From positions 1 through 64,000 of the forward strand of contig JACQQF010000037.1 in NCBI GenBank assembly GCA_016207095.1: a stretch of DNA of 64,000 nt, in the 5' to 3' direction. Made by a program: the position numbers and the translations under genes. Position 1 is the stretch's first letter. Each line of letters starts with the position of its first letter. Below the pieces are notes generated by a model, which was not told the origin of the DNA, did no database searches, and saw nothing but the letters and a program-made list of their open reading frames with translations. The DNA is from Candidatus Methylomirabilota bacterium (GTDB lineage: Bacteria; Methylomirabilota; Methylomirabilia; Methylomirabilales; Methylomirabilaceae). Shown here piece after piece: positions 23,378 through 35,045 of this stretch.

Positions 23378-24421
23378 ATGCAGCAAACGCTTTTTCCCTT
23401 TAGCGCCATTGTGGGCCAGGAAGAGATGAAACTGGCACTCCTGGTCAATGCCGTCGACCCTTCCATTGGCGGGGTCCTCATCCGCGGCCACAAGGGCACG
23501 GCAAAGTCCACCGCCGTGCGAGGACTTGCGGAGCTGCTGCCCCCGGAGCGAGTGGTCGCCCGGTGTGCCTTCCGCTGTCACCCGGAGATGTCGGAGGACT
23601 GGTGTCCTGCCTGCCAAGAGCGGGCATCGAAGGGTGAGCCACTCCCCGTGGGCGACGAAGCGACCCCGGTGGTGGACCTTCCGCTGAATGCTTCAGAGGA
23701 CCGGGTCGTGGGTTCGCTCGACTTGGAGGTAGCCCTGAAACAGGGGGAGCGGGCGTTCCAACCCGGCCTGTTGGCCGCAGCCCATCGTGGGATCCTTTAT
23801 GTGGACGAGGTGAACCTGCTGGAAGATCACCTGGTGGATATCCTCTTGGACGTCGCGGCCTCCGGGGTGAACGTCGTTGAGCGCGAGGGGATAGCCTACA
23901 GCCACCCGGCTCGGTTTCTTCTCGTCGGGACGATGAACCCCGAGGAGGGAGACCTTCGGCCGCAGCTTCTGGATCGGTTCGGCCTCTGCGTCGAAGTAGA
24001 AACGGCTACGGGCCGCGAGACCAGGCGGGCGGTGGTAGAACGAGCCTTGGCGTTCCAGCGAAACGCCGACCCGTTTCGACAGATATGGGAGGAAGCCCAA
24101 GAGGCGCTCCGCTCCAGGATCCGGCAGGCCCGCCACCAGGTCCGCTCCAATCAACCCAACCCGGACCTGATAGACTTTGTGGCCAGGGTCGCGGAAGAAG
24201 TAGGAGTGGATGGGCACCGGGCAGAAATCGCCATGCTGAAGACCGCGGTGGCAGCCGCCGCCCTGGCAGGGCGGTCAGAGCCCGACCCGATGGAATTGCG
24301 GGACGCCATGGCCCTGGCCCTGCGCCACCGGGTCAAGCGGCTTCCGATGGAACAGGCTTCGCTTGACCTGGCAGCCCTTGACCGATTTGCAGGGGAATTC
24401 CTGGCACGGAGGCATCTTTGA
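23378..24421 (+). CDS. Mg/Co-chelatase-type AAA+ ATPase (ChlI/BchI-like)
   Basis: 347 residues from ATG 23378 (GGGGAGG upstream). Walker A in IRGHKGTAKSTAVRG, Walker B in GILYVDEVNLLEDHLVDILL, and MNPEEGDLRPQLLDRFGLCV identify the chelatase/MoxR-like AAA+ clade. Four cysteines (CAFRC and CPAC around residues 66-88) may bind a metal, as seen in several chelatase I subunits. The family's known roles are hexameric motors driving metal insertion, working with a VWA D-subunit, which follows here. No catalytic H/CobN subunit or tetrapyrrole gene is present, so a non-chelatase, chaperone-like role is possible. Confidence 0.9.
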   Translation: MQQTLFPFSAIVGQEEMKLALLVNAVDPSIGGVLIRGHKGTAKSTAVRGLAELLPPERVVARCAFRCHPEMSEDWCPACQERASKGEPLPVGDEATPVVDLPLNASEDRVVGSLDLEVALKQGERAFQPGLLAAAHRGILYVDEVNLLEDHLVDILLDVAASGVNVVEREGIAYSHPARFLLVGTMNPEEGDLRPQLLDRFGLCVEVETATGRETRRAVVERALAFQRNADPFRQIWEEAQEALRSRIRQARHQVRSNQPNPDLIDFVARVAEEVGVDGHRAEIAMLKTAVAAAALAGRSEPDPMELRDAMALALRHRVKRLPMEQASLDLAALDRFAGEFLARRHL

Positions 24422-24446
24422 GGAGGTGAAGTTACGCGAGGATCCC

Positions 24447-25535
24447 GTGCAGGTTTTGGCGCCAACTCGCGACTTCACAGAGGCACCTCCGGACGGCAGG
24501 CTGGCCAGTCCAGCGGCGCCAATAGGGGGTCTCGCGCAATACACTCCCGCCCCCTGGGAGGGACTGGAGGGTGAGTTCTCATCTGGGGATGGCCATGCAG
24601 GCGGGGGTTCAGCCCGCGCGTGCGACTGTGACCTGGATATCTGCTCGCATCACCGGGACGATAACCCTGCCGCCGCCCGTCTGACTTTCGACGAGGACCT
24701 GATCCGCGAGACGCTCCTCGGCTTCAATCCCCGATGGCTCTTGCCACCCAAAAATCGCCGGGAGCGGGATGCGTCCGGCAAGCGGAGTCAGGCAACAAGC
24801 CGGCAGGCCCGTGGTCGTCACATCCGCAGCGTCCCTCTGACTCAATCGCGCGACATCGCCTGGCCTGCCACAATCCGGGCAGGAGCGGTACACCGAATGC
24901 GACGCCCACGCGGCCCCCTGGCCATCCCACTTGCTCCGGCCGACTTGTTCGCCAAGATCCGAAGGCGGAAGGTGGGCAACCTTCTCCTTTTCGTCATGGA
25001 CACCAGCGCCTCTATGGGAGTTCAGCGCCGGGCCATCGCGACCCAGGCGGCGATCATGGCGATCCTCCTCGACGCGTATCAGCGACGAGACCGGGTCGGG
25101 CTCGTCGTGTTCCGGGACCAGCAGGCTGAGGTCGTCCTACAACCCACGAATAGCGTGGACCTTGCGCGGCGCGCATTTGAGCGAATGGAGCTTGGCGGCA
25201 CGACACCGCTATCGGCAGGACTAATGGCCGCTCTTCGGATCGTGGAGCGGGAGGGCCGACGCAAACGCGACCTGGCTCCCTTGCTGATCATTCTCACCGA
25301 TGGCCAGGCAAACATCTCCCAAGGAGATCAGGACCCACTGGAAGAAGCGCTTCTTGTGGCACGGCACATGCGGGCGAAACGGGTGGGCGGGGTGGTCTTG
25401 GGGACTGAGGTAGCGGCGAGTCAACAGGCGCCGTTACGAGCCCTGGCAAGCGCCCTGGGGGCAGGCTACGTTCCTATGGGGGAGATCACGCACCGGGCAA
25501 TCCTGACCGCTATCCGTAGCCTTCAGTCGCGGTGA
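24447..25535 (+). CDS. VWA-domain protein, chelatase D-subunit-like
   Basis: About 362 residues if GTG 24447 is the start; another GTG (24426) or TTG within the previous gene are alternatives. A low-complexity N-terminus (with CDCDLDIC) leads to RGRHIRSVPL and IRRRKVGNLLLFVMDTSASMG, the linker and MIDAS DxSxS motif (about residues 185-189) of ChlD/BchD, then VGLVVFRD, GGTTPLSAGL and LIILTDGQAN. It lacks the AAA-like N-domain of full ChlD and must rely on the adjacent ATPase. The pair resembles other MoxR-VWA modules that remodel client proteins. Confidence 0.88.
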   Translation: MQVLAPTRDFTEAPPDGRLASPAAPIGGLAQYTPAPWEGLEGEFSSGDGHAGGGSARACDCDLDICSHHRDDNPAAARLTFDEDLIRETLLGFNPRWLLPPKNRRERDASGKRSQATSRQARGRHIRSVPLTQSRDIAWPATIRAGAVHRMRRPRGPLAIPLAPADLFAKIRRRKVGNLLLFVMDTSASMGVQRRAIATQAAIMAILLDAYQRRDRVGLVVFRDQQAEVVLQPTNSVDLARRAFERMELGGTTPLSAGLMAALRIVEREGRRKRDLAPLLIILTDGQANISQGDQDPLEEALLVARHMRAKRVGGVVLGTEVAASQQAPLRALASALGAGYVPMGEITHRAILTAIRSLQSR

Positions 25536-25808: not shown

Positions 25809-26579
25809 GTGGCGATTGAACTGGTGAGGACTGATGACCTGATGTCCGCCGACGGGCATCGAGTGCCAGGTTATCTTTTCACTCCCTCCAAGGCGATGGC
25901 CGGTGCGGTCCTGATCCATGGATACGGCGGCTGTAAAGAACAGATGCTGGGCTTGGCGGCCAGGCTGAGCGAATCCGGATTCTCCGCGCTTTGTCTCGAC
26001 CTCAGAGGGCATGGCGAGCACCCGGCCCCGCTGGGGAGTGGATTGCTTCTGGACCTCGAAGCGGGCATCGCTCGCCTTCGTCCTACCGGGCGGACGATCG
26101 CCATCGGTCACAGCCTTGGGGCAAGGCTTGCCTTGATGAGTTCTGCAGATGTGCTGGTGGCCATCTCCCCGGCGCTTCCGTCCCAACCATCCGAGGAGGG
26201 GCGCCAGATGCTCCTCCATTTTGGGAGCACGGCGGTTCGAGCCGTCTCTCCGGGCCAGATCCTTCAACTGTTGCAGGAGATGGGACCGGTCCCTTCATTC
26301 GCGCGGCCGAAGCTGCTGATCCACGCCAAGGGCGACATCCCATCCCTCATTGAAGGCATCGCAACCCTTGCCAGGTCGCAGCCTGGGGCCCTTCTATGGG
26401 AAATCGAGCTGGACCAGCACCGGGAGGCTCCTCTGAACCAGGGGATCCTGGGATATCTCCCCCGATGGTTCAACCACCTCGATCTGAAGTTCAATAGAGA
26501 GCTGCTGAACGATCTTCCATCCCGAGTATTGCGGGTCTTGAATCAGGCGGCTGTCTCGCCCCCGACGTCATCTCACTGA
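25809..26579 (+). CDS. Alpha/beta hydrolase
   Basis: 256 residues from GTG 25809 (GGGGGAAG upstream). Oxyanion region VLIHGYGGCKEQM, LDLRGHGEH, nucleophile Ser in AIGHSLGARLAL; the acid is probably in LIHAKGDIPS and a late His in ELDQHREAP. It is a small serine hydrolase of the dienelactone hydrolase/acylpeptidase-like type. Substrate unknown. It sits between the ATPase/VWA pair and the uncharacterised genes, all on one strand. Confidence 0.85.
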   Translation: MAIELVRTDDLMSADGHRVPGYLFTPSKAMAGAVLIHGYGGCKEQMLGLAARLSESGFSALCLDLRGHGEHPAPLGSGLLLDLEAGIARLRPTGRTIAIGHSLGARLALMSSADVLVAISPALPSQPSEEGRQMLLHFGSTAVRAVSPGQILQLLQEMGPVPSFARPKLLIHAKGDIPSLIEGIATLARSQPGALLWEIELDQHREAPLNQGILGYLPRWFNHLDLKFNRELLNDLPSRVLRVLNQAAVSPPTSSH

Positions 26580-26663
26580 ACGGGAGGGCGAGGCGGTCAT
26601 CTCCGCGTGGATTCCAGTGGCGCGTCGTTGGCACCCGGCTGGTTGCGGCCAGCGGTAAGAGCG

Positions 26664-27464
26664 ATGAGTGACGATGTGGTCGAGATCCGAGGCCAGAAGG
26701 TGACCCTCTATCGGGACGGGCCAGATGGGCCCCGCCTGGATCGGAAGGTCCATCTCGGCGACTTTCTCCAGGCGGTTGCTTCCACGCATCCGGGTCCGAT
26801 GAAGGACCGCTATCTATTCTTGCCTAGCGGGACTCGGTTGGTGCAGGTCAAAGGGGCCAGCACCATCCTGGTCATCGAACAGCCGCCCCAGGTTCGACAG
26901 ATCCGATGGAGCAATGAACGGATGGGCAAGGGAGGATCGTACGCCTCATATCGACTGGCCTTTCCCTATATGGTCTACGTCGTCACGTTCTACCGGGGCG
27001 AGTTCGAGGATCTTCGCCTTTACCACAGGACGGCCCCGCTGCGGGCCGGGAATGACCCCGTGTGCCTGAGCAACCTGATGAACGTGCAGGCCGATCTCGG
27101 CCTTCCCTCCTGCGCGAGAGCCTGCCTCCGCGGCCGACCCTCCGGCCTGACCGACCTGCCGTTCGCCGGGCAGGTGGAAGGTCTGCTGACCTATTTTTGG
27201 ACCTCCGGGTTCAATATGGACATCGAAGGGAACTGCTTTGAGAGAGCCCGAGTCCTCGACCCGCGCATCTCCAGCATGGAGGCTTGGCAGCAGGCGAGCG
27301 AGGCGGACCCCCTCTTCCCTCTAGAGGTGGCGTGGGAGTTGGCGGCACCCAGCCTCCAGGAAGAGGTGGACCGGCAGTGCGCCCTCCGCCATAATTATCT
27401 GAATCCGATCAGCAGCGCATCCGGTGTCGCCGATCTGCTGTACCGACTGGAAGAGACCGGGTAG
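26664..27464 (+). CDS. Protein resembling prokaryotic E2 family D (ubiquitin-conjugating-like fold)
   Basis: 266 residues from ATG 26664. I see a run of strands (RYLFLPSGTRLVQV, STILVIEQPPQVRQIRW, FPYMVYVVTFYRG at 100-112), then RAGNDPVCLSNLMNVQADLG and CARACLRG (Cys154), and a helix LLTYFWTSGFN. The order of strands, proline/NV loop and following cysteine recalls PRTRC-type protein B (prokaryotic E2 family D) sequences from memory. It carries eight or so other residues unlike that family, and no E1 (ThiF), JAB peptidase or ubiquitin-like gene is nearby. The fold call is inference; the gene itself is well supported by packing in the operon. Confidence 0.45.
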   Translation: MSDDVVEIRGQKVTLYRDGPDGPRLDRKVHLGDFLQAVASTHPGPMKDRYLFLPSGTRLVQVKGASTILVIEQPPQVRQIRWSNERMGKGGSYASYRLAFPYMVYVVTFYRGEFEDLRLYHRTAPLRAGNDPVCLSNLMNVQADLGLPSCARACLRGRPSGLTDLPFAGQVEGLLTYFWTSGFNMDIEGNCFERARVLDPRISSMEAWQQASEADPLFPLEVAWELAAPSLQEEVDRQCALRHNYLNPISSASGVADLLYRLEETG

Positions 27465-27483: not shown

Positions 27484-27822
27484 ATGAGCGACAAAGATCG
27501 CATCCGGATGGAGGAACGATACGGACTGTTGGGGACCGGGACCAGCGAACTCACCGTCCAGGGCCGCCGGTACGACCTCTATGAGCTGCTAAAGGCTATT
27601 GGGGAAGATTATCACGATATCCGTCCGATCGACGCCAAGGAACTCGAACCGGGGACACGCTTCGCCCTCCGAGTCTTTGACGTCGAGGAGCGGATGGTCG
27701 TCGCCTTTGAGTTCGACGCCCAATTTCGCTCCTTAAAGGAGGACCACGTGCACATCGCAGAGTGGATGGGCGACGACTATTACGAATTCAATTGGGGGAT
27801 CTGGTGTCCCGACTCCGTATGA
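27484..27822 (+). CDS. Small acidic protein, unknown
   Basis: 112 residues, strongly acidic, no signal or membrane helix. It contains TVQGRRYDLYELLKAIGEDY and LRVFDVEERMVVAFEFDAQF, suggesting an alpha+beta fold, and an aromatic C-terminus (DDYYEFNWGIW). No family recognised. It begins 19 bases after the E2-like gene (GAAGGGAGCC before ATG) and ends 12 bases before the next, so it belongs to the same operon. Confidence 0.75.
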   Translation: MSDKDRIRMEERYGLLGTGTSELTVQGRRYDLYELLKAIGEDYHDIRPIDAKELEPGTRFALRVFDVEERMVVAFEFDAQFRSLKEDHVHIAEWMGDDYYEFNWGIWCPDSV

Positions 27823-27834
27823 GGGTCTCATCCC

Positions 27835-29214
27835 ATGAATGAGCATCCCCGCATAGAACCACAACGCCAATATATTCAGTCCAGGGCGGAGGACCTGCTG
27901 GGACGGGTTGAGTCGATGACCGATGAGGAGCTCCGGTGGACGGTGCGCCTCTTCGCAGACTGCCTGGACCCGACCGAGCGCGAGGGGCTGCTTCGGGGTT
28001 ACAACGAATATCTTCGCCTCGAGGACCTGCAGCGCTTCGTGAGCGGGTTTGTCCCCAGGTACACTGAGCGCGCGCTGGTGGACCTTGAGACCAAACGGAT
28101 GGCCGACGGCTCAAGGCTTGATGAACTGACTGACGAGGAGTTACAAAGCATGTCGTTGGCGGAGAAGTGGGGGCTGCTGGAGCGTCACACTAGCGGTCTG
28201 GTCGGCTACAAGCTTCGCCGGGAGCTCGCCAGGCTCTTTATGTGCGGGAATTACGACCTGTACCATGGCTCCGGCCTCTCGGAATCGTCGGTGGAGTTCC
28301 CGATCTACCATCAGGTGCAGGAGCGATTGATGGGCCTTCCCGAGGACCAGGTTCTCGCCCTGGCGGCTCGCGTGCAGGAGATGACCGCCGGCCTCGACCA
28401 ACTCTCGCCCGAGCAGGCAGACGAGGTCCTGGCAAGGATCCGCTCGGCGATCGGCGGGAGTGTTGACGTTCACCAACCCATGGAGTCTTTGGTGGGCGGG
28501 CGGATGGCGAAACTTCCACTGGTGACTGAACCGACCACGGCCGAGCTGGCGGCGGATGTGAAAGAAGCCATAGGAACCATGACTCCCGAGGAACTCAAGC
28601 GGTCTTTTTTCGTCCTCCTCGACCTCATGACCCTGGAGGAGATCCGGAGAGATCTGTCCCCGCTTCAGGGGCAGTATCAATCCGCACACAACATCCCGCC
28701 AGAGATTCTGTCCGCCCTCGTCCCGATCATCGCGGCCAAGCTGGGTGACCGAAACCTCTGCGATTTCGCCGACCGATACCGAAACGGCCGAATGCTCGCC
28801 ATGCCGCCCGTGGGTGACCAAGTCTGGTCACTTCTGCCCACGGACGAGCGCCTGAAGCTGCTGGAGCAGGACAACGACCGTATGGATCTGGCGCAGAGCT
28901 CACGCCATCTTGCCAAGATCTTCTTGAGCCTGGAGTACCGGTCCCTCTTCGATCCGGATGCGCAGGTGAGGATCCTCGAGTCAAATGGATACCAGCGCCT
29001 GGTCAGCAAGCTGTTCCTGGACTTTGGACAACCCGAGGAGGGCCGGCGTCTGCGTGAATTGAACCGAGTTGTCAGTCGGATGATGCTCGAGGCCGAGGCG
29101 ACACCTGAAGCAGACCGGGACAACCGGCTGCTGCAGATTCGGAAGGTGATCGGGACCGCACTCGACCTCCCGGACGAACAAATCTTCGCTGGCACGAAAG
29201 GACGCGAGCCATGA
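27835..29214 (+). CDS. Large helical protein, unknown
   Basis: 459 residues, soluble, predicted almost all helical with acidic surfaces. Two similar motifs recur: LLGRVESMTDEELRWTV / LMGLPEDQVLALAARV / IGTMTPEELKRSFFVLL, each a 'MTxEEL' helical unit, which suggests repeats built on one hairpin. No catalytic motif was found. It may be a scaffold. Its TGA overlaps the next gene's ATG (ATGA), showing translational coupling. Not recognised as any family. Confidence 0.75.
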   Translation: MNEHPRIEPQRQYIQSRAEDLLGRVESMTDEELRWTVRLFADCLDPTEREGLLRGYNEYLRLEDLQRFVSGFVPRYTERALVDLETKRMADGSRLDELTDEELQSMSLAEKWGLLERHTSGLVGYKLRRELARLFMCGNYDLYHGSGLSESSVEFPIYHQVQERLMGLPEDQVLALAARVQEMTAGLDQLSPEQADEVLARIRSAIGGSVDVHQPMESLVGGRMAKLPLVTEPTTAELAADVKEAIGTMTPEELKRSFFVLLDLMTLEEIRRDLSPLQGQYQSAHNIPPEILSALVPIIAAKLGDRNLCDFADRYRNGRMLAMPPVGDQVWSLLPTDERLKLLEQDNDRMDLAQSSRHLAKIFLSLEYRSLFDPDAQVRILESNGYQRLVSKLFLDFGQPEEGRRLRELNRVVSRMMLEAEATPEADRDNRLLQIRKVIGTALDLPDEQIFAGTKGREP

Positions 29215-29424: not shown

Positions 29425-30411
29425 ATGCAACTGCCGTCAGAAGAGCTATTGGCCTCCGTCCTGGCCGAGACAGAACAGGCGAGGGCTACAGAGGATCGGG
29501 ATGCTCTGGCGGCCTCGCTGTTTCGAATGGCGACACTCTACCGGCAGCGTGGTGAGGCGATGAAAGCGATCACGCCTCTGAAGGAACTCCTTGCCTTGCA
29601 GGAAGAGACCCAGGATCATCAGGTGATGATTCCAACCCTGCTCTTTCTCGGCGACCTCTACCGACGCCAGGGAGGGTGGCATCAGGCGCTGGCTCTGTAC
29701 GACCGGGCCTGTGCCATGCAGGAGGCGGCAGGCGACAAGACCGCCATGGCCGCCACCATTGGCAGCATGGGTGTGGCATACGAGGGGATGGAGATGTGGG
29801 AGCAGGCGCTCACGACCTATCGCCAGAGCCTGGCCCTCAAGGAGTCGCTTGGTGACCTTGTCGGGGTCGCCCTGATCTGGAACAACATCGGGAACGTCGA
29901 GGCAAAGCGGCGCCGGTTCGAGGAGGCGTTCACCTCGTATGGCAAGAGCCTGGCCATCCAGGAGAGAGCTGAAGACAGGCTTGGTCAATCGATGACGCTC
30001 GCCAATCTGGCAAGCCTCCATCAGCGGCGCGGCGAGTGGGAGGAGGCCACCCTCCGATATCGCGAATGCCTTTCCCTCGTGGGAAAAGAGGATCCTCAGC
30101 GAAGGGCCGCGGCCTTGAACGGCTTGGGATTCGTGCGAAAGAAGGTGGGTGATCTCGAGGGGGCCATCGCAGCCTACGAGGAAGCCCTTCGGCTGCTTGA
30201 AGCGTCCGGAGATCACTTGCGGTCAAGTGTCATCCTCCACAACATGGCCCTCATCCATGAGGAACGGAACGAATGGCGGGACGCGCTTCGCCTGATGGAA
30301 CAGGTCATTTCGATCGATAAGCGGATCGGCCACCCCGATTTGAAACAGGATATGGAGGTCTTTCGTCGAATCCGTTTGAAGCTTGATGTGGAGCGCGATG
30401 CGCATCAGTAG
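29425..30411 (+). CDS. Tetratricopeptide-repeat protein
   Basis: 328 residues forming about seven or eight TPR units of the TPR_12 kind, for example GEAMKAITPLKELLALQEET, EMWEQALTTYRQSLALKESL, RRFEEAFTSYGKSLAIQERA and GDLEGAIAAYEEALRLLEAS. Repeats are close to 40 residues and span nearly the whole chain, so this is a protein-binding scaffold. No signal peptide. Repeat homology between units is also visible in the DNA. Within the operon it could recruit clients or bridge the other unknown proteins. Confidence 0.9.
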   Translation: MQLPSEELLASVLAETEQARATEDRDALAASLFRMATLYRQRGEAMKAITPLKELLALQEETQDHQVMIPTLLFLGDLYRRQGGWHQALALYDRACAMQEAAGDKTAMAATIGSMGVAYEGMEMWEQALTTYRQSLALKESLGDLVGVALIWNNIGNVEAKRRRFEEAFTSYGKSLAIQERAEDRLGQSMTLANLASLHQRRGEWEEATLRYRECLSLVGKEDPQRRAAALNGLGFVRKKVGDLEGAIAAYEEALRLLEASGDHLRSSVILHNMALIHEERNEWRDALRLMEQVISIDKRIGHPDLKQDMEVFRRIRLKLDVERDAHQ

Positions 30412-30441: not shown

Positions 30442-30855
30442 GTGAAACAGGCAACGCGAGGCGATGCCCACCGATGGATCGCTGAGGCGGAGAAGGATAT
30501 CAAGGACGCCGAGATGTTGCTCCGGCATGAGGGCTACTATCCCCTGTGCCGGTTGGCCTACCTGGCAGCGGCAAAGACGATGCGCGGATTGTTACTGGGA
30601 ATGGGCCAACCATTCCCGGAGGAGGCCGACCTCGCCGCTTTGAGTCAGCAGGTCTCATTGGTCGAGCCAACGCTGGGAGTAGTGACGCAGTCCCTCGACC
30701 CGTTGCAGCGATTCGCACCGCCAGCGCCGACAGCCGGTCCTGAGGCAACGCCGCTCCCTCCTCCCCTCTATAGCAGGGAAGCGGCGAAGCGGGCCATCGC
30801 CCTAGTTCGACAGGCAGTCGCCGAGGTCAAGCGATCCCTGACCGCGTTGTCATGA
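30442..30855 (+). CDS. HEPN-like protein without the RNase motif
   Basis: 137 residues from GTG 30442 (GAAGGAA upstream). The first half, HRWIAEAEKDIKDAEMLL and YPLCRLAYLAAAKTMRGLLL, matches the first two helices of HEPN domains; a Pro-rich insert and a last helix (REAAKRAIALVRQAVAEV) follow. The Rx4-6H motif of HEPN ribonucleases is not visible, so a binding rather than cleaving role is more likely. No nucleotidyltransferase (MNT) partner is adjacent. Confidence 0.6.
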   Translation: MKQATRGDAHRWIAEAEKDIKDAEMLLRHEGYYPLCRLAYLAAAKTMRGLLLGMGQPFPEEADLAALSQQVSLVEPTLGVVTQSLDPLQRFAPPAPTAGPEATPLPPPLYSREAAKRAIALVRQAVAEVKRSLTALS

Positions 30856-30885: not shown

Positions 30886-31164
30886 ATGAAGCGATACTTG
30901 CAATTGCTGGGAGAGATGAGGAACTACCAGTTGCCCCAGGCGAAGAGCGCTGTGCAGGAGATGGAACCTGATGATGAACTGGTGATTGTCGTGCCGGACC
31001 AATCGATGGCCGAGACGATCCAGCAGTGGGCAACAGGCCAGGGCTACACCGTCTCCAATCCCAAAAGGAGCGGGGAAGGGATGACCCGATGGCAAGTCAC
31101 GGTCCAAAAGGCCGTTGCGCCGGGAGAGAGACCGCCAGCCGGAGCGCCGGCCCTTCCTGCCTGA
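30886..31164 (+). CDS. TusA/SirA-like protein lacking the catalytic cysteine
   Basis: 92 residues: YQLPQAKSAVQEMEPDDELV then PDQSMAETIQQWATGQGYTV and RWQVTVQK. Strand-helix order and the DD..T..I..W....G match the TusA fold, but the CPxP motif that carries persulfide sulfur is replaced by QLPQ. AGGAGG precedes ATG 30886. A sulfur-relay role is therefore unlikely; it may be a structural homologue. Confidence 0.6.
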   Translation: MKRYLQLLGEMRNYQLPQAKSAVQEMEPDDELVIVVPDQSMAETIQQWATGQGYTVSNPKRSGEGMTRWQVTVQKAVAPGERPPAGAPALPA

Positions 31165-32125: not shown

Positions 32126-33103
32126 TCAATGACGGCGAATCGCGGCAACAGGTATCCTGCCCTCGGCCAGCAACGCCTGCGTTCCCCTACTCCGCTGCGC
32201 GTCCCGTCCGGGCTGGATCGCGGCCAAACGCCCCTTCCACGGCACGAGGTCGAACCGCTCGCCCTTCGGATGCGCCTCATACGTGTCGATCAGGTCGCGG
32301 TAGAACTTGACGATAGCGCCCACGAGGGACACGGCGTACTCGCGGCCCTGGATCTTCAGGCAGTGGACACCTAGGTCGATCAGGTGCGGGACATCGTCCA
32401 AGAGGAAGAATGCGTCGTTCTTGAGGGCGACGTGGTCCTCCCACTTGGTGTCGCCGCTGTAGAGCTGCCAGTCCTCCAAACAGACCCTGTAATCAAGGCC
32501 ACCCCGGTTCGGGCTCCCCTTGAAGAGGTCTTTGCCTCCATCGTCGATCGTTCGCTCAAGCCGATGATAGGGTGACATCCAGCACTTACCGAGATAGGTG
32601 TAACAGTAGTTGGCGTGGATCAGGATCTCAATCCCTACGTCGAGCTGCTCCTTGCGGGAGGCAAGCTCCCTGAGAGTCAGTTTCGTGTCCGCCACCACCT
32701 GCGAGACACCGATCTCCCGATAGAAGGCCACGTCAGCGTTGTTCAAGATGTTGGCCCCGATGCTGGCGTGGATGGTCAACTCGGGGAAATGCCGGTGGAC
32801 GACCGCAATCGCCCCGACATCGGTCATAATGGCCCCATCGGCACCGTACCCAACGAGGGTCTCCATTCGGCGCAAGAGGTCCGGGATCTCCCTGGACTGC
32901 ATGTTCGTGTTGAAGGCCACCCGGAGCTTCGCGCCGCCATCGTGGGCGATCCGGATCGAGTCTCGGACAGCGGCGTCGTCCATCTCGAAGGCGTCGCGGC
33001 GGCGGCTCCATCCGCGAGGTCCGACATAGATGGCATTCGCCCCGTTCCCGACCGCCTCCGCGACCATCTCCAGATTGCCCGCGGGAGCTAACAGCTCGAT
33101 CAT
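32126..33103 (-). CDS. U32-family protein, UbiU-like (third of three)
   Basis: 325 residues from ATG 33103 (AAAGGAGTG upstream; ATGA overlap with the previous stop). MIELLAPAGNLEMVAEAVGNGANAIYVG is the U32/UbiU N-terminus (shown as MIELLAPAGNLEMV then GNGANAIYVG). VAFNTNMQ, IHASIGANILNNADVAFY and cysteines in HANYCYTYLGKCWMSP and DYRVC could ligate a [4Fe-4S] cluster. The known UbiU-UbiV pair carries out oxygen-independent hydroxylation of ubiquinone precursors; related U32 proteins hydroxylate rRNA or tRNA. The substrate here is unknown. Confidence 0.85.
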   Translation of the reverse strand: MIELLAPAGNLEMVAEAVGNGANAIYVGPRGWSRRRDAFEMDDAAVRDSIRIAHDGGAKLRVAFNTNMQSREIPDLLRRMETLVGYGADGAIMTDVGAIAVVHRHFPELTIHASIGANILNNADVAFYREIGVSQVVADTKLTLRELASRKEQLDVGIEILIHANYCYTYLGKCWMSPYHRLERTIDDGGKDLFKGSPNRGGLDYRVCLEDWQLYSGDTKWEDHVALKNDAFFLLDDVPHLIDLGVHCLKIQGREYAVSLVGAIVKFYRDLIDTYEAHPKGERFDLVPWKGRLAAIQPGRDAQRSRGTQALLAEGRIPVAAIRRH

Positions 33104-34113
33104 CGAATCACTCCTTTCACCTGAGAGAGTTGAAGGAGGTCTGTACCGGGCCGCCCCGGCCCCGAGGCCTCCGCCCAACGCCGCGCGCCCAGGTACTCCA
33201 TTCCCGACCCCCCGAAGTAAAAGCCGTTGCAGAGGCCGACCCGAGCATGGTTTCTGAGCGTGTTCCACCACCCCTCTTCCATGCCGTTCATTCCTGCGAC
33301 AGCCTGCTTCAGCGCCTCACGGTAGACCCTGCCGACCTCCAGCCGATAGGCGGGACTCTCCGAGACCGCCTCGATCCGAAAACAATCACGCCCCTCCGCC
33401 ACAAGCTGGGGGAGGTGCTCCAGCATGCAGACATCCCGTCCGCTCAGGACCCCTTTCCCTATTGACTTCATCGCCCAGTCGCCCTGCTTGAGGAAGAGAT
33501 CCTGCTGGCAGAGGTCGGGACACTTCACCCCCCATGCCTCCTCATAGTCCAAGAGGAAACAGTGATCCGAAATGCCAAGCGGCATCTTCCCGTGAACCAG
33601 CAGCTCCATCGGAAGCCCGACCTGGCGCTGGATCTGACCGATCTCCTCCAGGCTCAACTCGTAGTTGGGGGTGATCCGCATCGCCCCGAATCGCTTGAGG
33701 ACTTCGGCGCCGGCATCGGTGTAGACGTTTGCGAGCCCGCCGATGTGGACCGGCAGGCCGGGGTGTGTTTCGTGGACGATCTTCAGCACCCCGAGATTAT
33801 GGACCTCGACCGCATCGGCGCCAGCCTCGACGGCCACCGCCAGAGCCTTGCGGAGCTTCGGAAGAAAATCGTTCCGCGGGGCGGCGTACGAGGTGACGTA
33901 CGCCCTCTTGCCCTGAACTTTAACAGCCGCGATCGCTTCCCGAAGGTCATCGAGATGCTCCAGTAGGTTCGCCTCGTATAGCCGGCACGTGATATTGCCC
34001 AAATAGATCGCGTCGTACGGGCTCAGGTCTGAGGCCTTGAGGTCACGCAGATTCGAGATCGTTGTATTCAGCTCAAACGACCGGGTCACCCAGTCTCCTT
34101 CCCCACACGTCAT
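33100..34113 (-). CDS. U32-family protein, UbiV-like
   Basis: 337 residues from ATG 34113, which overlaps the preceding stop (ATGA). YDAIYLGNITCRL, HGKMPLGISDHCFLLDY and VKCPDLCQQD give four cysteines spaced as in UbiV (an early Cys, then HCF and CxxxC). Length and the missing LLAPAGN start also fit UbiV rather than UbiU. C-terminal tail is longer than E. coli UbiV, with GRDVCMLEHLP and a DCFRIEAVSE barrel strand. It lies between two UbiU-like genes, so heteromeric complexes are plausible. Confidence 0.8.
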   Translation of the reverse strand: MTCGEGDWVTRSFELNTTISNLRDLKASDLSPYDAIYLGNITCRLYEANLLEHLDDLREAIAAVKVQGKRAYVTSYAAPRNDFLPKLRKALAVAVEAGADAVEVHNLGVLKIVHETHPGLPVHIGGLANVYTDAGAEVLKRFGAMRITPNYELSLEEIGQIQRQVGLPMELLVHGKMPLGISDHCFLLDYEEAWGVKCPDLCQQDLFLKQGDWAMKSIGKGVLSGRDVCMLEHLPQLVAEGRDCFRIEAVSESPAYRLEVGRVYREALKQAVAGMNGMEEGWWNTLRNHARVGLCNGFYFGGSGMEYLGARRWAEASGPGRPGTDLLQLSQVKGVIR

Positions 34114-35045
34114 CGGCGCGCCACCGTCCAGGACGGCTCGAGCGAGGGTTCCTGGAAGGTGGGAAGGGGGGTTGTATCCATCCATGCATCGATCGCCGCC
34201 CGGTAGCGGCGAACGAGCGGGGCAAGCAGGTCCGGTGAAAGACTTCTGCCCTGGAGCTTGACCACATCGACGCCGGCATCCAGGACATCAGACAGGTCGT
34301 TGATGGGACTGATCTGGCGGCTGGGCAACAGGCGCTTCGTCACCTGCTGTCCGTCCAGGTAAAGACCCCACGGCTGCTCGCAGACCTTGAAGCAGACACC
34401 GGCGCCTCCACGCTTCATGCTGCCGACGAGCCGGCTCCCCTCTCCGTGCACCTCTGCCAGGGGAGTCGGATTAAGACGGTAATAGCTTGGCATCCAACAT
34501 TTGCCCAGCAGGATGAACTCCTCCACCATGTGGATCATAACCTCGGTCATCACGTCCGGGACCTGCGCGATGGCGCGGAGCTCATCCAGGGAAAGGGTGC
34601 CGGGCAGGACGACCGCATCGGCCCCCAGATCGCGGTAGAAGGCGACATCTGCCTCGTTCATGGCTGCACACCCGATGCTCGCGGTGATGCACAACGCCGG
34701 GTAGCGAGCCCGCAGTTCCTCCAGAAGACCTGGGTCGTTGACGATGACGCCATCGATCCCCCAGCCGATCAGCTCAGCGACTCGACCGAGGAGGTATCGC
34801 CGTTGGGTTCGGCGAGGGATGGTGTTGAGTGCAACTCGGACTCTTCGAGACCGGGCATGGGCAGTCTTGAGAACCTCCTGAAGCTCTTCCGAGGTCAGCT
34901 CGCCTTTTGCCCCGCCGCGGCTCCATCCCTTGAGACCGACGTAGATGGCGTCGGCGCCGGACTCGAAGGCTGCCACGGCAGCAGTCGGGTCACCGGCGGG
35001 CGCAAGGAGGATCGGCGCATCTGCCCGATGGAGAATTAGTGACAT
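34110..35045 (-). CDS. U32-family protein, UbiU-like (first of three)
   Basis: 311 residues. APILLAPAGDPTAAVAAFES and GADAIYVGLKGWS are the U32 N-terminal strand-helix; VALNTIPRR, CITASIGCAAMNEADVAFY, LLGKCWMPSYYRL and GVCFKVCEQPW provide a cysteine set near that of UbiU. VVKLQGRSLSP is the late barrel strand. Its start codon is 7 bases from an operator copy (35052-35067) that overlaps the GGGAG ribosome-binding site. It heads the three-gene U32 operon, directly after the IclR regulator gene. Confidence 0.85.
   Translation of the reverse strand: MSLILHRADAPILLAPAGDPTAAVAAFESGADAIYVGLKGWSRGGAKGELTSEELQEVLKTAHARSRRVRVALNTIPRRTQRRYLLGRVAELIGWGIDGVIVNDPGLLEELRARYPALCITASIGCAAMNEADVAFYRDLGADAVVLPGTLSLDELRAIAQVPDVMTEVMIHMVEEFILLGKCWMPSYYRLNPTPLAEVHGEGSRLVGSMKRGGAGVCFKVCEQPWGLYLDGQQVTKRLLPSRQISPINDLSDVLDAGVDVVKLQGRSLSPDLLAPLVRRYRAAIDAWMDTTPLPTFQEPSLEPSWTVARR

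Follow-up and report, generated by a model that had tools for sequence, protein, structure and literature searches.

A strongly diverged E2-like protein with partners encoded elsewhere in its genome suggests a hitherto undescribed ubiquitin-like tagging system split over two loci in Methylomirabilota

Can a protein that resembles an E2 enzyme still take part in conjugation when no E1 enzyme, ubiquitin-like protein (Ubl) or JAB peptidase is encoded beside it? The question is raised by E2q, a gene in the window analysed here, a 64,000-nucleotide stretch of a Candidatus Methylomirabilota genome. A preliminary description of this DNA likened its product to PRTRC protein B (PRTRC-B), placed it outside a PRTRC cassette and suggested that it might be without conjugation chemistry. 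We find that E2q is very likely E2-like and that a loss of conjugation chemistry is unlikely; with its partners encoded elsewhere in the genome, it suggests that Methylomirabilota have a ubiquitin-like tagging system, spread over two loci, that has not been described before. The features discussed are collected in Table 1.

Table 1. Positions of E2q, its neighbours and related features at other loci (positions without a locus prefix refer to the window)
Feature	Position	Strand	Description and evidence
AAA_A	23378..24421	+	Mg-chelatase/cobaltochelatase-type (ChlI-like) AAA+ ATPase; TIGR02442 N-half 6.5e-140, Mg_chelatase, AAA_lid_2
VWA_A	24363..25535	+	ChlD-like VWA protein; VWA_2 8.3e-14, TIGR02442 C-half
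ABH	25809..26579	+	alpha/beta-hydrolase; Abhydrolase_6 4.7e-12
E2q	26664..27464	+	266 aa, diverged Prok-E2_D/PRTRC-B-like protein; ORF, 20-member alignment, profile-profile match
o112	27484..27822	+	small protein, no family; gene directly after E2q
o459	27835..29214	+	no significant Pfam/NCBIfam family; synteny
TPR protein	29425..30411	+	TPR_12 1.7e-42; final conserved gene of the type-A cassette
HEPN protein	30442-30855		just 3' of the window cassette
TusA-like sulfurtransferase	30886-31164		just 3' of the window cassette
Three ORFs in a row	32126-35045	-	U32-family peptidase-like (UbiU/UbiV-like by eye)
JAB_A	L073:7532-8233		JAMM protein on contig C23 (G000:C23)
E2q copy, family f6	L036:4286-5089	-	neighbours are another kind of TPR protein and ABC-2 transporter genes
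Ubl-o112 fusion ORF	L095 6413-7042	-	family f5
Ubl-o112 fusion ORF	L096:507-1196	+	family f5

The E2q reading frame is intact from ATG to stop. A GTG lies in frame at 26607, 5' of the ATG, and the starts of aligned homologs agree with the ATG. The nearest relative, from a Candidatus Methylomirabilota MAG (L001), shares 83% amino acid identity. The two genes differ at 31, 20 and 98 sites in codon positions 1, 2 and 3, respectively, with 76 synonymous and 46 amino-acid-changing codons; since the differences fall mostly in third positions, E2q is a protein gene under selection. Of the 95 Methylomirabilota genomes searched, 17 have a homolog, and all of these belong to a single order of 35 genomes. 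Family scans returned no Pfam or NCBIfam match for E2q, PF14460 included, and a scan of phage-defence models no PADLOC match. No relatives were found in IMG/VR by scans with one PRTRC-B protein and with the E2q alignment, and comparisons of E2q with phages and of its paralog E2q_B with plasmids gave no significant match.

To relate E2q to PRTRC-B, we compared a profile of 20 E2q homologs, covering both paralog groups (type A and type B), with one of 16 PRTRC-B/Prok-E2_D proteins from plasmids of Pseudomonadota, Deinococcota, Cyanobacteriota, Bacteroidota and Nitrospirota. The profiles aligned over 168 columns with a P value of 9.7e-6 and a score of 43.8, at an hhalign probability of 82.6, that is, not above 95. 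In this alignment, C154 of E2q (codon 27123-27125) pairs with C147, the invariant catalytic cysteine of PRTRC-B, and N140 (codon 27081-27083) with N139, its invariant active-site asparagine. The top score among 200 column-shuffled PRTRC-B profiles was 23.4, against 43.8 for the real one; reversed profiles scored about 14 against E2q, and unrelated profiles 16 or less. The type-A and type-B subsets each match PRTRC-B on their own, at 6.6e-5 and 1.8e-5, respectively. With both active-site residues aligned, clean controls and independent subset matches, the likeness to PRTRC-B noted in the preliminary description is borne out.

Strict membership of the PRTRC-B family is another matter. PF14460 and TIGR03737 gave no match up to an E value of 10 in the genome of the window, and PF14460 found nothing in 94 genomes of the phylum Methylomirabilota, in searches whose positive control, a plasmid, matched at 2.2e-31. 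The asparagine and cysteine lie 14 residues apart in E2q and 8 in PRTRC-B, owing to a six-residue insert in the active-site loop. A spacing of 8 also separates the asparagine of the eukaryotic HPN motif from the catalytic cysteine. A glycine follows at C+3 in E2q (C-L-R-G), unlike the C-x-G of PRTRC-B. Position 184 is asparagine in 19 of the 20 homologs, where PRTRC-B has a downstream histidine described by Iyer, Burroughs and Aravind (2006, PMC1779556) as absolutely conserved in operon type 6d. In our comparison set, the three cyanobacterial Prok-E2_D proteins (L081, L086 and L087) lack this histidine and carry FN[RSK]D instead. Because E2q stays below the family cut-off and departs from PRTRC-B in both the Asn-Cys spacing and the histidine, we place it outside PRTRC-B; judged by these comparisons, it is a diverged sister family. 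By profile comparison, it is homologous to Prok-E2_D, and it probably works in a like manner.

Residues P101, R118, R122, P125, N137, L138, N140, R152 and C154 are invariant in all 20 E2q homologs, as are G157, F178, W179, F183, F192, R194, W208 and W224. The FPYMVYVV strand, the NV loop, the ACLRG segment and the aromatic helix were all located in E2q as initially described. The two cysteines singled out at that stage fared differently: Cys154 is present in 20/20 homologs, and Cys134 in 3/20, its place otherwise taken by L, Y, F or S. Three residues N-terminal of C154, 18 of the homologs have a second cysteine (CRAC, a CxxC arrangement), which in the window E2q and L001 is displaced by one residue (C150) to give CxxxC.

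No ThiF-type E1, JAB or Ubl gene lies beside E2q or elsewhere in the 64-kb window, so that the absence first reported holds for the window; it does not hold for the genome. Contig C16 (L022) encodes a 43% identical paralog, E2q_B, in the gene order AAA_B - E2q_B - JAB_B - E1 - Ubl. The E1, of the ThiF family, matches PRTRC_ThiF at 4.5e-19, and the homolog of JAB_B at locus L030 matches PRTRC_A at 1.5e-8. Plasmid PRTRC loci are ordered C-F-B-A-ThiF; the C16 cassette is therefore collinear with B-A-ThiF. The Ubl, the only one in this genome, has 90 residues and ends in FVRLAGEKG. Its predicted structure follows a beta-beta-alpha-beta-beta-beta order, with MoaD, NEDD8 and ubiquitin as best PDB matches (Foldseek, probability 1.00). 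As its sequence profile does not match PRTRC-C significantly (P 0.068), we base the Ubl assignment on the predicted fold, the gene position and the C-terminal glycine. The JAMM motif HxH-x7-S-x2-D is intact both in JAB_B and in JAB_A, which is encoded on contig C23, apart from all other cassette genes. By eye, the neighbours of JAB_A resemble housekeeping genes (ffh, trmD, rplS and rnhB).

The window itself carries a different set of neighbours, the type-A cassette. AAA_A and VWA_A adjoin E2q in families f1 and f4; the MIDAS motif DTSAS is present in VWA_A, whose start codon is uncertain. The hydrolase ABH, with an invariant GHSLG motif, is conserved directly 5' of type-A E2q. On the other side, o112 has no Pfam or NCBIfam match, and o459 is kept after it in the type-A loci of f1, f3, f4 and f5; neither matches the PRTRC-F or PRTRC-E profiles. 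Homologs of the HEPN and TusA-like genes that follow the cassette are absent from the other loci retrieved.

Across the 35 genomes of the order, the presence of E2q goes with that of its putative partners. Ubl occurs in 15 of the 17 genomes with E2q and in 2 of the 18 without (Fisher 5e-6), E1 in 15/17 against 1/18 (6e-7) and JAB_A in 14/17 against 3/18 (1.5e-4), all three values being uncorrected for phylogeny. Within the genus of the window, E2q is present in three of the 15 genomes, the same three that carry Ubl, E1 and JAB_A. With E1, Ubl and JAB encoded in trans and co-occurring with E2q, the view that E2q lies outside a conjugation system is not supported.

The distribution of genes between the two loci varies. 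Genomes of family f4, such as G017 (96% complete), have an E1 locus that reads AAA_B-JAB_B-E1-Ubl without E2q, and their sole E2q lies in the type-A locus with AAA_A and VWA_A directly after it; there, the window-type E2q is therefore the only candidate E2. Genomes G026 and G023 of family f3 also have an E1 locus without E2q, together with a type-A locus holding two E2q copies with Ubl between them. In family f5, Ubl (ending in FVRYAGEKG) is fused in a single ORF to a homolog of o112, which forms the C-terminal part. That E2q and Ubl shift between loci, and that Ubl and o112 are fused, argues that both loci belong to a single system. An apparent profile match between o112 and Ubl was traced to ORFs extended upstream, its true basis being the f5 fusion. 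The f6 copy of E2q represents a third setting. We also noted that at L023, L034 and L035 the Ubl gene is flanked by two E2q copies in one type-A operon and that its product extends C-terminally beyond GEKG.

We consider it probable that E2q is a diverged E2 that takes Ubl from an E1 encoded in trans onto Cys154 and passes it to targets of the AAA/VWA/TPR locus. The ThiF-type E1 encoded on the other contig would charge the 90-residue Ubl, E2q would accept it as a thioester on Cys154, and the Ubl would then be conjugated to targets handled by the AAA, VWA and TPR proteins of the E2q locus. A JAMM metalloprotease (JAB) may trim or remove the tag, and the AAA+ unfoldase AAA_B, the AAA_A-VWA_A pair or both may remodel the tagged proteins. 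The homology to PRTRC-B, the alignment of Cys154 and Asn140, the partners of the paralog, the co-occurrence and the f5 fusion are the computed support for this reading. More tentatively, and with somewhat less than even confidence, we envisage a two-locus Ubl network in which a cassette of E1, Ubl, JAB and AAA+ unfoldase cooperates with a ChlI/ChlD-type AAA-VWA locus bearing its own E2 and o112, and which may route tagged proteins to AAA+ remodelling without a proteasome.

Alternatively, the window E2q could be a non-catalytic E2 fold, similar to RWD or UEV domains, that would bind Ubl or tagged targets without a covalent link and bring in the AAA/VWA proteins, leaving E2q_B as the sole catalytic E2. 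It is E2q_B that lies beside E1, Ubl and JAB in this genome, the window protein has another residue in place of the downstream histidine and carries the loop insert, and its AAA/VWA surroundings would suit an adaptor. Cys154 is nevertheless invariant in both paralog groups, and in f4, which keeps E1, Ubl and JAB intact and has the type-A protein as its sole E2q, any E2 of the set would have to be this protein. The f4 genomes thus disfavour a loss of chemistry for the E2q family, and we regard the adaptor role as unlikely for the window protein.

Structure prediction bears on whether E2q has an E2 fold at all. The AlphaFold2 model from the 20-sequence alignment (pLDDT 76.8) places beta strands first, then a weak loop from Asn to Cys, then helices. 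Foldseek found no UBC structure for this model in the PDB; in BFVD, it matched three uncharacterised viral predicted proteins with a probability of 1.00. A sequence profile of PRTRC-B itself detected no solved homolog among known structures, and the missing UBC match therefore does not refute the fold. A Cys-containing beta protein that keeps company with Ubl genes by chance, its Cys/Asn match being convergent, would explain why E2q has neither a UBC nor a family match and an hhalign probability below 95. We judge this very improbable: the paralog sits in the conserved B-A-ThiF order beside PRTRC_A-like and PRTRC_ThiF-like neighbours, shuffled and reversed controls fail, both subsets match independently, and the PDB search had no solved PRTRC-B homolog that it could have found. 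Least probable of all is an accessory to sulfur transfer or metal cofactors, with E1 and Ubl as a ThiF/ThiS-like relay and the CxxC and the ChlI/ChlD-like AAA/VWA proteins serving metal insertion: the CRAC motif of 18/20 homologs, the chelatase-type AAA_A/VWA_A pair and the TusA-like gene downstream are countered by JAMM proteases and a Ubl-o112 fusion that indicate protein tagging, by the change to CxxxC in the window E2q and L001, and by the absence of TusA homologs from the other fetched loci.

PRTRC-type Ubl conjugation in bacteria has been recognised from gene order; to our knowledge, no function has been established for it. Here, PRTRC-like parts lie outside the plasmid PRTRC cassette and together with AAA+ unfoldases, with the E2 separated from the E1 locus in some lineages and an f5 fusion that resembles ubiquitin fusion precursors. 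Should the E2 prove functional, bacteria would have a Ubl pathway that is linked to unfoldases and has no tie to any known system of phage defence.

The closest known relative is PRTRC-B/Prok-E2_D (TIGR03737, PF14460) of operon type 6d (PMC1779556), which E2q resembles in the 168-column homology with aligned cysteine and asparagine, and whose cassette the C16 locus resembles in its B-A-ThiF order, PRTRC_A-like JAB, PRTRC_ThiF-like E1 and small Ubl with a C-terminal glycine. E2q differs from PRTRC-B in falling below every family cut-off, in the six-residue insert between Asn and Cys, in reading CRACLRG rather than VCxG and in having Asn184 for the histidine. Unlike the PRTRC cassette, the present system is split over two loci, both with AAA+ ATPases, has no PRTRC-E or -F match and carries E1, JAB and Ubl beside E2q_B rather than beside the window E2q. 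A Pseudomonas plasmid that also carries PRTRC encodes an AAA ATPase, a DUF3150 protein and a VWA protein in a row (L064:33581-37535), an echo of the AAA/VWA pairing in the window. The phage-defence systems BilABCD and CBASS Cap2/Cap3 share the general E1-E2-Ubl-JAB logic, and the C16 E1 weakly matches PADLOC E1-E2 models (8e-6); here, however, E1 and E2 are separate proteins, the Ubl is single, no cGAS-like gene was seen and E2q has no PADLOC match. Lastly, among putative cobaltochelatases of the ChlI-ChlD type and MoxR/VWA-like remodellers, AAA_A and VWA_A match the N- and C-terminal parts of TIGR02442; in the window, these parts are separate genes and share their locus with an E2-like protein.
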